Shown here: piece after piece, positions 52,524 through 58,287 of the stretch
How positions within the stretch are numbered: position 1 is the stretch's first letter
How the letters are laid out: each line of letters begins with the position of its first letter
Origin: Melioribacteraceae bacterium
Lineage (GTDB): Bacteria; Bacteroidota; Ignavibacteria; Ignavibacteriales; Melioribacteraceae
NCBI GenBank assembly: GCA_024103215.1
Contig: JAGFIY010000127.1
Location: forward strand, 124,001 to 188,000
Length of the DNA stretch: 64,000 nt
Direction of reading: 5' to 3'
Position numbers and translations under genes: made by a program
Notes under the pieces: generated by a model
Told to the model about the DNA's origin: nothing
The model's input: the letters and a program-made list of their open reading frames with translations, nothing else
The model's database searches: none

Positions 52524-54635
52524 TTATCTTATCAGCATCATCTTTTTTGTTTGGTTTACGCTGCCTGCATTAAGCCGGTAGTAGTAAATTCCCGAAGATA
52601 AACCCTCGGCATTGAACTTAACTTCATAAGTTCCTGGTAATAAGTTTTTATTTACAAGCACAGCAACTTCTCGGCCGAGTAGATCATAAACTTTTAGTGA
52701 TACATTAGAATTCATCTTAACTGCCGGGATGGAAAATTGTATAGTGGTTGTTGGATTAAATGGATTCGGATAATTTTGTTTGAGTGAAAAAATCTGCGGT
52801 ACATAATTTTCATCAACGTTCGTAGGGAAATTATCTTTTAAGATATACAGCCCATTCCAAACTTGAGCAAAGTATATTATATCATTACCTAACGTAATCT
52901 CAGCTGAATAAGTGTACGGTGTGTCGAACTCACCGGTCAATAATGGATTTTCTTTATCACTTATATCTATTCTTTTAACACCTTCTTCTGATCCGATGTA
53001 TGCGTTATCTCCTTTCACAACGACTGAATACCAAAAATCACCCGGCAAACTACCCACCACTACCGGGTTATTTGGATCGCTTATATCGGTTATGTTCAAG
53101 CCATGACCGCAGGTATATGCGTAGTTTCCTTCAACAAAAATGGCACGTGCAAAATAGATGTCTTGGACATCCCAATCCGTAACCGACTGAGGATTAACAG
53201 GATCGGAAACATCGAAAATAGTTACTTTACTTTCGTTATTTGTTACAATATAAGCGAAATCATCTTTAACAAAAATATCAGTTGCATTGACTTCAATAAC
53301 TCCAACTTCATCAGCGTTCGTCGGATCGCTTATATCCAGTATGCTGATACTGTTATTGAACAAAACATAAAGATAGTCACCGATTATTTCCAGATCATTG
53401 ACTCCGCCGGTCGGTAACTCAGCAATTATTTCCGGAGCGTAAGGATCACTTATATCAATAAAATATATTCCCAGAAACGAGCCAAGACACAACAAATTTC
53501 CTGATAGTGCTGACGCTCTATAATTGTTATTGATCAACCCGGGTAATACTTGTGAGATTTTAGAAATGCTTGTTTTTGATTCGACTTCAAAAATAAATAA
53601 CCCATATCCTGAATCAGTAATATAGACTAAATTATCTTTCACTTTAATATCACGTATATAACTCCCAGTAATAAAATCTGAAAGATGAACAATGTTAGAG
53701 GGATTTGATGCATCAAATATTGTTAAACCCCCATTACATACTATCATTAAATTCCCGCTTGTAATTATAGATTGTGGACGATAATAAGTACCAGCTTCCA
53801 ATTCGCCTACAATATTTGGGCTCAGGGGATTTGTAACATCAATTAATAATGTCCCGCCCCATGCTGTTTCAACCATATAAACTGTTCCGTTATCGTAAAA
53901 AAGATAATTAGCATTTACATCCAGTGAAGCAATTTCCTGTGGAGAGGTATTATCAGTTACATCGATTACTTTAAATCCTTGTGATGCTGCTAAATATGCA
54001 GTTGTTCCATTTACAGCAACACTATTCCCCCAGTAATTTCCTTCTAAAACTCCAACCAGTAAGGGAAGCGCCGGATCTTCAACATTATAGATAATTAGTC
54101 CCGAATACTTCGATGCTATGTATGCAAAATTACCTTGCACGTACACATCATTGATTCCATCCGCAAACAACTGATAGATGTAAACTGGATTTGCGGGATC
54201 GGAAACATCGTAAATCATTATCCCTCCGCCGTCAACCAAATATACATAACCGTCATGGTAAAATATTTGAGCTGCATACCAATTATACGATACGCCGGTA
54301 CCCATCAAGATCATATTTGACGGATCACTTACATCAATAACCACCATACCAATAGTACGGATCGACACGTAGGCATAATTGTCTTCAACAAAAACATCAG
54401 CAACTTGACCACCAACCAGCACGTCCGATATAGCCACCGGATTTTCCGGATCACTAATATCAAGACTTGTCAATAGTGACCCGTTGCCTACAAATGCAAG
54501 CGTACCCTCCGTCGCAGCAGCATTACAAGATCCATTTGCCCATCGAGCTTGAACGCTGAAATCATCTTGGGCATAAATTAATGCTGCGCTTAAACTCAAA
54601 AACAATAAAATTGAAAAAAAATCTTTCTTAATCAT
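52524..54635 (-). CDS. T9SS-sorted LVIVD-repeat surface protein
   Basis: 703 residues from ATG at 54635. Signal peptide, about fourteen beta-propeller-type LVIVD repeats (NYAYVSIRTIGMVVIDVSDP, ...), and C-terminal tail with LKQNYPNPFNPTTT ending MMLIR. Repeats fold as beta-propeller; likely a surface scaffold. Placed next to a secreted subtilisin. Confidence 0.9.
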   Translation of the reverse strand: MIKKDFFSILLFLSLSAALIYAQDDFSVQARWANGSCNAAATEGTLAFVGNGSLLTSLDISDPENPVAISDVLVGGQVADVFVEDNYAYVSIRTIGMVVIDVSDPSNMILMGTGVSYNWYAAQIFYHDGYVYLVDGGGIMIYDVSDPANPVYIYQLFADGINDVYVQGNFAYIASKYSGLIIYNVEDPALPLLVGVLEGNYWGNSVAVNGTTAYLAASQGFKVIDVTDNTSPQEIASLDVNANYLFYDNGTVYMVETAWGGTLLIDVTNPLSPNIVGELEAGTYYRPQSIITSGNLMIVCNGGLTIFDASNPSNIVHLSDFITGSYIRDIKVKDNLVYITDSGYGLFIFEVESKTSISKISQVLPGLINNNYRASALSGNLLCLGSFLGIYFIDISDPYAPEIIAELPTGGVNDLEIIGDYLYVLFNNSISILDISDPTNADEVGVIEVNATDIFVKDDFAYIVTNNESKVTIFDVSDPVNPQSVTDWDVQDIYFARAIFVEGNYAYTCGHGLNITDISDPNNPVVVGSLPGDFWYSVVVKGDNAYIGSEEGVKRIDISDKENPLLTGEFDTPYTYSAEITLGNDIIYFAQVWNGLYILKDNFPTNVDENYVPQIFSLKQNYPNPFNPTTTIQFSIPAVKMNSNVSLKVYDLLGREVAVLVNKNLLPGTYEVKFNAEGLSSGIYYYRLNAGSVNQTKKMMLIR

Positions 54636-54668
54636 CGTATCCCTCAAAATTATTTTATTATGAAAAGA

Positions 54669-57600
54669 CTATTTAAGTAAAATCAACTTTCGAGCAGCAG
54701 AAAATTGACCTGAAGTGAGTCGATAGAAATAAATTCCGGACGATAACTCTTCCGCATTCAAATTAATTGAATAAGTTCCTGCATTCTGATAATGATTTAC
54801 AAGTACTTTTACTTCTTTCCCAAGGATATTGAAAACAGATAATTTTACATCGTCGCTTCTGGGTATTGAATAATTTATTGTTGTGTTTGGATTAAACGGG
54901 TTGGGATAATTTTGCGACAATGAATATTCTTTCGGTAATATGGATGAATTTTCCACATCTACGATAAAATCTATTGGTATGTCAATATTACCCCCGTTTG
55001 TTGTAATATAAACTTCGCCTTCATAAACATTATCGTTCAATCCGGTTGAATTAAAAGTGATCTCTACTGTTCTTGATCCACCCGGATTTATACTTCCGGC
55101 TTCGGGGGAGACTGTGATTCTATCAACTGTGCTTCCGATATTTCCTTCAGCTCTAATTAAGAAGGCTCCATTTTCATAATTTGGAAGAGTGTTTAAGTTA
55201 ATCCATGATGCACCATTAAAGTAATAACTTTTGTTTGGAATTAGACCGTTTTTATCCGCACCAGCCGGGAAATTAATTCCGGAACCCATAGTTTCAATTG
55301 AAATGAAAAACTTTTCACCAGGATCAAAATTCATCGGCGGATTTATTGTTGCACGATACCACTTCCCATTCTGCGACAGACTTAAATCAAGAAACCCTGA
55401 AGCTAGAACATTTAAATTTGCATCAGTGACTTCGACGAAAACACTATTAGTTGAATAAGTTTCTGTTCTCATAAAAAAGTTCAATGCATCTAATTCAAAA
55501 CTGGAACCTGATATATCAAATTCGTTTCTCCATTTAAAATCTTCTGAACTTCCCCAACCTATAAAGCTTTCGGGATTTTCATTACCGTCATCAAGAATAA
55601 GAAAGTTATCGCCGGTAAGTGTTTTTGATCGAACACTTTTATTATTCAAAATAAATTTGGGAATACTCTTATTCGCAATTTGTCCGTTTGAAGAATTCTT
55701 CTTGTTATCATATGCCTTAGGATTGTTGACCCCCTTTATTGAGTAAGTATCTTCGATGATTTGATAACCGGAGAAATTTCCTTCGACTGAGATGTTGAAA
55801 CTAAGTATCGCACCACCAATGTTACTCAACACAAACGATGCAGTTCCAATATTATTAGGACCATCCTCGATTGATAAATATTGTACATCAACTTCTGCAA
55901 GCGCTGACGAACCACCGTATAATACAGCTTGATAAATATCAAGTTTTCCGTAGCCCCAAATACTGTTTGGAACCTGCCCTAAACCCATTGTGTTAGTGGT
56001 CGATATCAGTGCAGTATAAATTTGACCTGGAGTCAGTGAAGGATTTTTTTGAAGCAGAAGTGCACCGGCTCCTGCGGCAATTGGGCAAGCCATACTCGTC
56101 CCCTGCATTCGGAAATAATTTGCGGCTCCACCGGGAATTCCGTCATTATCAATCCAACTGTTCGAAAAAGATGTATATACATCCGTATCTCGAAGTGATA
56201 ATATAACATGACCTGGAGCAGTGAAATCGGGTTTTTGATAACCGTCTACTCTCGGACCTCTGCTGGAAAAAAGCGCAATATCATTTAGTATATAATTATT
56301 ATACCTCCAGTTATCTCCTTCAGAATCAGTCCAAGTTTCTCTTGAAACATAAGCACCAACTGCAAATGCGTTATCAGCACTGCCGGGACTTCCGATCGTA
56401 TAATCTTTATCAGAATATTGGAAAGTTACATAGCTTCCCCAATCATCGTAAATATGAAATTCTTGTGAGTTCGGAGAGTTGTTGACAACTTTTAAATAAT
56501 AAGTCCCAGCTTCGGTTATGTAAAAGTTGTAATGTGAATAGAGCGATTCAGTTCCTCTCAAACTCTCCGATGGAAATGGATCCATTACAATATTGTTCAT
56601 CTGTGTATAAGAATCATCGTAATATTCAAGTGTGAGATCGTTACGTGTACTCAATCCATCATACCACACAAGATTGAACCACAAAGCCACTTGATTACTG
56701 CCGGGGTCCGCAACATTGACTTGAATAAAACCTGAAGAACTGTATGCAGCAACTGTTCCTGAATAATGACGCATATCATCCGCCGAGTTACCTGCAGAAA
56801 TAAAGAAAGGAACCCCTTGATCATAAACCCAATCAGCTTTTTGATCCTTCGCAATGCTGCCGTCATGAAATGCGTCCCATCCACCGTAACTCATTGAAAG
56901 AATATCCACATCGTAAATATCTACTGCTGCATCCATGGCAGCAATCATAGCATCACTCGATGCACTAGAAGTTTCGTCTTTTCCAATTTTCAGAAAAACT
57001 AGATCAGCCCCCGGAGCGGTACCAGTAAAAGCACCTTCACCATTATTGGGATGCGAGTGACCGTTAGAAAGGGTTCCCCGACCGAGTGCCGATCCCGTAA
57101 CGTGAGTTCCGTGGCCTGAAACTGTGTTACTTACGTCGGGGTCAATTGAAGGATAAAATCCATAATCCATAGCCTGGTAATTGCTTGGTAAATCGGTACC
57201 CTTATAAAAATCATCCAAGCCGGAATCAAGAATTCCAATCGTAACTCCCGATCCATCATATCCCATATTCCAAACCTCCGGGGCATGTATACTTTGCACC
57301 CCATTATTATTGTGAGGATATGATTGGCGTTCAGCTGTATCCATCTTTTTAATAAAATCAAAAGAAAGGGTTTTTATAAACTTGTCCACCGGCATGCTGG
57401 CAACGATGAAGCCGAGAGGATGATTATAGGAAGGCGGTGTCCATAGTTCCCAGTAACACTCAATTCCTTCACTTTCCAAAATTGTTTTTTGAGTTTCCAA
57501 AGGTTCGCTTTCAAAGTAAAGAATTACTTTGCTGAAACCCTCGCTTGCGGATTTTAATTTGTTTAGTAGTAATAAATTTTTTGTGCTTATTTTTTCAAGA

Positions 57601-57773
57601 AGAGATCCGCTTAGTATTTTGTCGCTTAATTCCGGAGGTACTTGAATGTACTGTTCCGCATTAATAAGAATTCTTTCTTGATCTAAAGAGCTGCCTTTCA
57701 ATTTTTCATCAATCTGGGCAAAAAGAAAAGCCGGAAGCAGGAGAATTAAAATTGCAAAAAATTTATCTCTCAT
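54669..57773 (-). CDS. Secreted subtilisin-like (S8) serine protease with T9SS tail
   Basis: 1034 residues. Signal peptide (ends LFAQ), propeptide (about 21-155), then S8 catalytic domain: D183 (GILDSGLD), H221 (GHGTHVTG), N329 (SAGNS), S560 (GTSMACP). Later part has immunoglobulin-like segments and a sorting tail (LSQNYPNPFNPNTT ... LILLK). Ribosome site GGAGG. Propeptide is homologous to the upstream lipoprotein. Confidence 0.96.
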   Translation of the reverse strand: MRDKFFAILILLLPAFLFAQIDEKLKGSSLDQERILINAEQYIQVPPELSDKILSGSLLEKISTKNLLLLNKLKSASEGFSKVILYFESEPLETQKTILESEGIECYWELWTPPSYNHPLGFIVASMPVDKFIKTLSFDFIKKMDTAERQSYPHNNNGVQSIHAPEVWNMGYDGSGVTIGILDSGLDDFYKGTDLPSNYQAMDYGFYPSIDPDVSNTVSGHGTHVTGSALGRGTLSNGHSHPNNGEGAFTGTAPGADLVFLKIGKDETSSASSDAMIAAMDAAVDIYDVDILSMSYGGWDAFHDGSIAKDQKADWVYDQGVPFFISAGNSADDMRHYSGTVAAYSSSGFIQVNVADPGSNQVALWFNLVWYDGLSTRNDLTLEYYDDSYTQMNNIVMDPFPSESLRGTESLYSHYNFYITEAGTYYLKVVNNSPNSQEFHIYDDWGSYVTFQYSDKDYTIGSPGSADNAFAVGAYVSRETWTDSEGDNWRYNNYILNDIALFSSRGPRVDGYQKPDFTAPGHVILSLRDTDVYTSFSNSWIDNDGIPGGAANYFRMQGTSMACPIAAGAGALLLQKNPSLTPGQIYTALISTTNTMGLGQVPNSIWGYGKLDIYQAVLYGGSSALAEVDVQYLSIEDGPNNIGTASFVLSNIGGAILSFNISVEGNFSGYQIIEDTYSIKGVNNPKAYDNKKNSSNGQIANKSIPKFILNNKSVRSKTLTGDNFLILDDGNENPESFIGWGSSEDFKWRNEFDISGSSFELDALNFFMRTETYSTNSVFVEVTDANLNVLASGFLDLSLSQNGKWYRATINPPMNFDPGEKFFISIETMGSGINFPAGADKNGLIPNKSYYFNGASWINLNTLPNYENGAFLIRAEGNIGSTVDRITVSPEAGSINPGGSRTVEITFNSTGLNDNVYEGEVYITTNGGNIDIPIDFIVDVENSSILPKEYSLSQNYPNPFNPNTTINYSIPRSDDVKLSVFNILGKEVKVLVNHYQNAGTYSINLNAEELSSGIYFYRLTSGQFSAARKLILLK

Positions 57774-57822
57774 TATAACCTCCGAAAATATATTTTATAG
57801 TATACTATTTTGTTGATTCTAA

Positions 57823-58287
57823 CTAGTCTGGTTGTACCTCTCTCTCAGCTGTATCAATCTTTTTAATCCACTCCAAACATAGAACTTGCTTGAACAGCTC
57901 AATTTTAATTTCAGCGGTGAGAAATCCGAGTGGATGGTTAGCGGCAGGAGGACTCCATGATTCCCAATCACACTTAAGAGCAAGATTATTTAGTTCGTCT
58001 TTTTGTCCAATGCTTGGCTCGGAGCTCAAATAAATAAACACTTTCTGAACAAGTTCAGTCTCATCAATATTTTCAATTTCAAATAAATGAATTTTTTTAC
58101 TCATTTGTTCGATGAGTTTGCCGCTTAAAATTTTGTGTGCACATTCTTCGGGCACATTCAAATAATCATTAACAGAAATGAGCTTACTGTTATTCTGATC
58201 ATTGGATTCAGTTTGCTCGATCTCATTTGATCTGCAAGCCGCAGTGAATAGAATAAGAAGTATTACTAACGCAATTGGAAATTTCAT
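57823..58287 (-). CDS. Lipoprotein homologous to the subtilisin propeptide
   Basis: 154 residues. Signal peptide with lipobox TAAC (Cys18). Residues 41-150 align without gaps to residues 41-150 of the next protein, with about 47 of 110 identical by hand count: KILSG (52-56), SEP (89-91), W.PP...NHPLGF (111-122) and K.DTAER (143-149). It ends exactly where the catalytic domain would start. It is either a remodelled free propeptide that can bind or inhibit the protease, or a truncated duplicate that has kept its frame. Function is inference. Confidence 0.85.
   Translation of the reverse strand: MKFPIALVILLILFTAACRSNEIEQTESNDQNNSKLISVNDYLNVPEECAHKILSGKLIEQMSKKIHLFEIENIDETELVQKVFIYLSSEPSIGQKDELNNLALKCDWESWSPPAANHPLGFLTAEIKIELFKQVLCLEWIKKIDTAEREVQPD

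Follow-up and report, generated by a model that had tools for sequence, protein, structure and literature searches.

A lipid-anchored, free-standing homologue of a subtilisin propeptide, encoded beside its S8 protease, as a candidate cognate inhibitor

Stand-alone propeptide-like inhibitors are known from eukaryotes, such as Pleurotus POIA1, the yeast proteinase B inhibitor, Arabidopsis SPI-1, Toxoplasma MIC5, and Plasmodium SUB1-ProM, the last of which is encoded beside subtilase genes and inhibits SUB1; all stand-alone subtilisin propeptides named in the available text of PMC6993865 are eukaryotic. In Streptococcus pyogenes, the protease SpeB is encoded beside Spi, an inhibitor cited as a propeptide analogue in the available text of PMC2873492. 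The Bfi and Bti proteins of Bacteroides are predicted inhibitors of C10 proteases; several are lipoproteins, their genes lie tens of base pairs from those of the proteases and are co-transcribed with them, and self-protection has been proposed (PMC2873492, PMC3462683). In the dentilisin operon PrcB-PrcA-PrtP, the lipoprotein PrcB is the product of the first gene and is needed for the presence of the subtilisin-family protease PrtP (PMC8167434). The T9SS-secreted KP-43-type peptidases of Bergeyella cardium carry an inhibitory propeptide in cis, described as not I9-like in the available text of PMC11982257.

The window, by which we mean the whole stretch of 64,000 nucleotides that was analysed, contains a pair of neighboring genes on the minus strand. 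P0002 (54669-57773) encodes a 1034-aa S8 protease with a T9SS sorting tail, as read from its ORF and from matches to PF00082 and PF18962. Its own propeptide comprises residues 20-154 (57312-57716), as placed by the alignment with P0001 and by the model; the S8 catalytic region, residues 155-617 (55923-57311), matches PF00082, and every aligned sequence has D183, H221, N329, and S560. The C-terminal sorting domain occupies residues 956-1031 (54681-54908; PF18962, E = 1.6e-12), and the two Pfam matches agree with the T9SS-secreted S8 protease named in the first-pass annotation. Pfam reports the catalytic domain in two pieces, with an inserted stretch around residues 345-456.

P0001 (57823-58287, minus strand) encodes a 154-aa free-standing propeptide-like lipoprotein, recognized by ORF reading and by orthologues beside the same protease in two genomes of genus g25 (G043 and G055). 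Its signal peptide and lipobox extend up to Cys18 (58234-58287), and its core, FTAAC, agrees with that of the PROSITE-style lipobox, giving P0001 the signal peptide, lipobox, and Cys of a bacterial lipoprotein that the earlier annotation had ascribed to it. The g25 orthologues read ICFSC, missing the strict core and keeping the Cys, and a polar linker between the Cys and the domain is kept in the lipoproteins. The spacer between the two coding sequences, put at 50 bases before, measures 49 bp (57774-57822); it contains a GGAGG ribosome-binding-like site ahead of the protease start, and the scan listed no terminator-like site within it. A terminator-like hairpin upstream of P0001 (58379-58404), detected by a consensus scan only, which found 5 such sites vs 3.3 expected, suggests that P0001 is the first gene of its transcript. 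Past the protease, a T9SS-tail protein (52524-54647, minus strand) starts 21 bp beyond the protease stop codon and possibly shares its transcript; it is not conserved in g25.

The 154 residues of P0001 are homologous, in the same register, to residues 1-153 of P0002. At equal residue numbers the two proteins show 54 identities vs at most 17 at the other offsets from -5 to +5, and the earlier hand count of about 47 identities among the 110 residues 41-150 proved exact. The local alignment score was 259 vs 35.7±4.9, with a maximum of 55, for 500 shuffles. The alignment, described before as gapless, is indeed so over the domain, the optimal local alignment opening two one-residue gaps, which compensate each other, in the signal/linker region. 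Identities at the three codon positions (66, 76, and 45 of 115) fit an old duplication that has been kept at the protein level. We hold the homology and the pairing of lipoprotein and protease, which are read from sequence, with high confidence.

We aligned 19 protease propeptides with five lipoproteins. In 18 of the 19 protease rows the dipeptide NN follows a P-x motif; all five lipoproteins have P-D at that position and then stop or diverge. The homology of P0001 ends at P153-D154, just ahead of the protease NN, and we infer with this support that P0001 stops at the propeptide boundary of the protease, as had been proposed. Its C-terminal tail, AEREVQPD (residues 147-154; 57826-57849), is aligned to the end of the protease propeptide and may be an active-site tail; the g25 lipoproteins extend 10 residues beyond the boundary. 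In the columns that the protease propeptides conserve, 75 of 95 lipoprotein cells keep the residue vs 100 of 285 in the other columns. P0001, as well as the second family described below, resembles the I9 family in its homology to an S8 protease propeptide and not by the Pfam I9 model, which matched neither the lipoproteins, nor the protease, nor the aligned set. PDB sequence searches gave no match with alignment A1 and weak unrelated matches only with A5.

AlphaFold2 models the fold region of P0001 (57850-58050) with a pLDDT of 91-97 in 10-residue blocks across residues 81-150. The elements, in order, are a strand (80-87), a helix (93-101), two strands (105-112 and 121-128), a helix (129-136), and a strand (143-146); the same topology is given for subtilisin propeptides in the available text of PMC6993865. 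This topology supports a predicted subtilisin-propeptide-type fold for P0001, without a significant fold match: Foldseek against the PDB gave none below E 0.001 (best, E 0.02), the PCSK9 prodomain being among the matches shown at E 0.11, and the search of viral models likewise gave nothing below E 0.001. The model of the P0002 propeptide and catalytic region is of low confidence (mean pLDDT 50.5, pTM 0.39); in it, the propeptide elements take the P0001 positions except for the second strand.

Among 97 relatives searched for the pair, as the first-pass annotation had proposed, free-standing copies adjoin the orthologous S8/T9SS protease in G043 and G055. The g25 proteases are 69% identical to P0002 over residues 1-617, and only a T9SS tail is common to the genes that flank the pair in the window and in g25; the Xaa-Pro aminopeptidase that neighbors it in g25 sits on another contig in the genome of the window. 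The P0001-type domain is rare: across the class 15 of 391 genomes have it, and within the family 7 of 79, five of these 7 with a free-standing lipoprotein. Several proteases with the same propeptide type have no lipoprotein adjacent. Scans of viral contigs with P0001 found no relatives, and neither a tblastn search of plasmids nor a scan of genome contigs with P0001 alone gave a match; the latter scan with the alignment as the query returned 8 loci. At L059:1107-5415, on a Candidatus Cloacimonas contig outside the class of the window, two tandem S8 genes carry a P0001-type propeptide.

The frame, the lipoprotein Cys, and the conserved propeptide positions are intact across genera. The suggested dN/dS check gave a signal of protein-level constraint on the lipoprotein in its wider comparisons, with pS 0.85 vs pN 0.32 between the window's genus g1 and g25 (pS being saturated at 51% amino-acid identity) and an omega of 0.18 for the pair in genus g34; between G043 and G055, which differ by too few changes for a firm estimate, omega was 0.76 with a bootstrap range of 0.30-3.1.

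When we examined what lies beside other S8 genes of this genome, we found a second family. P0003, a 116-aa lipoprotein (L072:3205-3555), lies 50 bp from another S8/T9SS protease (the pair, on contig C117, spans L072:3205-5843). Its homologues occur in 15 of 97 relatives (E up to 0.01) and in 37 of 341 class genomes from 23 genera (E up to 1e-4), some weak matches of the latter search being protease propeptides and not lipoproteins. A same-strand S8 gene stands beside the lipoprotein in 35 of 37 loci, or 34 of 36 once a duplicate is set aside, mostly 12-61 bp away, and the two remaining loci lie near contig ends. The lipoprotein gene comes first in most of these pairs, as in the window. Pfam confirmed the S8 domain (PF00082) for 10 partners, several partner proteases carry a T9SS sorting tail, and the Cys is invariant in the A5 and A6 alignments. 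Pairs also exist outside the class, in the same phylum (G412, G503, and G559).

Where the second-family lipoprotein profile weakly matches large ORFs, the match lies at the N-terminal end of an S8-like protein. Furthermore, with the partner-lipoprotein profile, 29 of 30 partner propeptides score higher than any of 600 decoys, which were shuffles and not unrelated natural proteins, and pairwise Z reaches 26.7. A tree that combines the lipoproteins with the partner propeptides cannot be reconciled, on its well-supported branches, with fewer than two state changes, which calls for either multiple origins or a reversal. A W-x-P-P motif is common to P0001 and the family of its protease, and profiles A5 and A3 match each other weakly (E 0.0047, probability 7%), so that P0001 most likely has an origin separate from that of the second family; lipid-anchored stand-alone propeptides probably arose more than once here.

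Genus g34 (G033 and G047) has a variant, a lipoprotein of 265/268 aa that combines the same propeptide-like domain with a C-terminal domain of ~100 aa and whose gene immediately precedes that of a T9SS protease of the papain family, C1 (L029:8508-10991 and L030:10717-13208); S8 genes of this propeptide type lie elsewhere. The extra domain represents a separate small-lipoprotein family, and among four other loci such lipoproteins lie just upstream of T9SS-tail proteins (~935-952 aa) in L066, L067, and L069 but not in L068. In L067, L068, and g34, the extra-domain gene is divergent from an Xaa-Pro aminopeptidase-like gene.

Compared with these proteins, the I9-type inhibitors described in the available text are likewise small proteins of the subtilisin propeptide fold, each encoded by a gene of its own, but they are eukaryotic and not described as lipid-anchored, whereas here the proteins are bacterial lipoproteins beside S8 genes with detectable homology to the partner propeptides. 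Spi, as far as the available text describes it, shares with P0001 a bacterial origin, a propeptide-like nature, and a gene beside the protease, but SpeB is a cysteine protease of family C10, another class than the S8 partner here. Bfi and Bti are also small predicted inhibitors, several of them lipoproteins with genes close to the protease, but they are reported as staphostatin-like, without significant identity to propeptides, and have C10 partners; the C10 or C47 partner that goes with the staphostatin/Bfi/Bti type is replaced by S8 here and by C1 in g34. In dentilisin, too, the operon of a subtilisin-family protease begins with a lipoprotein gene, and PrcB reportedly lacks homologues outside oral Treponema (PMC8167434). 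The Bergeyella cardium peptidases are S8 T9SS cargo like P0002, but the inhibitory propeptide is their own, and the available text of PMC11982257 reports no stand-alone copy. A full-text literature search of limited scope found no bacterial lipid-anchored stand-alone S8 propeptide.

The conserved pair, the membrane anchor, and the propeptide fold are most simply explained if P0001 is a cognate inhibitor on the producer's side. Judging from sequence, model, and analogy, we consider it somewhat likelier true than false that P0001 is a membrane-anchored inhibitor of the adjacent protease that serves self-protection. The two genes would then form a protease/anti-protease unit. The subtilase would be exported via Sec as a pro-enzyme carrying a propeptide of its own and would cross the outer membrane via the T9SS; the small gene would supply a second copy of the propeptide domain, fixed by its lipoprotein signal in the producer's envelope. 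The lipoprotein would most likely attach to the catalytic domain, whether mature or active too early, in the way of the cis propeptide, with its β-sheet packed onto that domain and its C-terminal tail in the active-site cleft, and the enzyme would be inhibited near the producer's own membrane.

Alternatively, the lipoprotein may hold the mature protease non-covalently at the cell surface, inhibition being secondary or transient; the polar linker is kept, and PrcB of Treponema denticola is a lipoprotein that interacts with PrtP and has been proposed as its anchor (PMC8167434). We regard such a tether as rather unlikely, for a propeptide-like domain whose tail occupies the cleft would shut off the very enzyme that it held. 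Moreover, a T9SS sorting tail can attach cargo to the surface, and several partners already carry one. A role in trans, in which the lipoprotein aids folding of the protease or keeps it inactive and T9SS-competent in the periplasm, would suit the leading position of its gene and the fact that subtilisin propeptides act as intramolecular chaperones; we rate it a little lower still, since the partner proteases keep their own N-terminal propeptide, so that a second foldase is not obviously needed, and several proteases with the same propeptide do without an adjacent lipoprotein. The g34 domain beside a C1 protease, with S8 genes of the same propeptide type elsewhere, would fit a guard against other proteases, self or foreign, whose linkage reflects its origin by duplication, but this is improbable given that adjacency is kept across different genomic contexts and in 34/36 second-family loci. 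The truncated duplicate retained by chance, offered as an alternative in the first-pass annotation, has a plausible beginning in partial duplication and a recent g25 omega not clearly below 1, but we reject it as highly improbable, since a second genus has the pair between different flanks, the homology ends just ahead of NN, frame, Cys, and propeptide positions stay intact across genera with pS saturated, and in the second family such pairing persists through many genera.

P0001 looks like a guard or controller under selection; stronger evidence than the one pair seen in the first-pass annotation is that the second, probably separately derived gene pair is widespread in relatives across the class. 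Whether the phylum has repeatedly evolved protease/anti-protease operons, in which secreted subtilases are matched by a lipid-anchored propeptide copy as cognate membrane-bound inhibitor, is in our estimate an even call. If the pairs are inhibitors, many bacteria would rein in secreted subtilases with a membrane-bound antidote made for the purpose, and the large number of natural pairs would allow propeptide specificity to be tested directly.

Lipoprotein ORFs of ~200-225 aa were also seen at L104:1492-2124 and in L108, the former reading as two tandem propeptide-like domains. Between G043 and G055, the P0003-type lipoprotein at 1501-1848 of L078/L079 is 52% identical in its N-terminal half and 97% identical in its C-terminal half, a contrast that suggests recombination.
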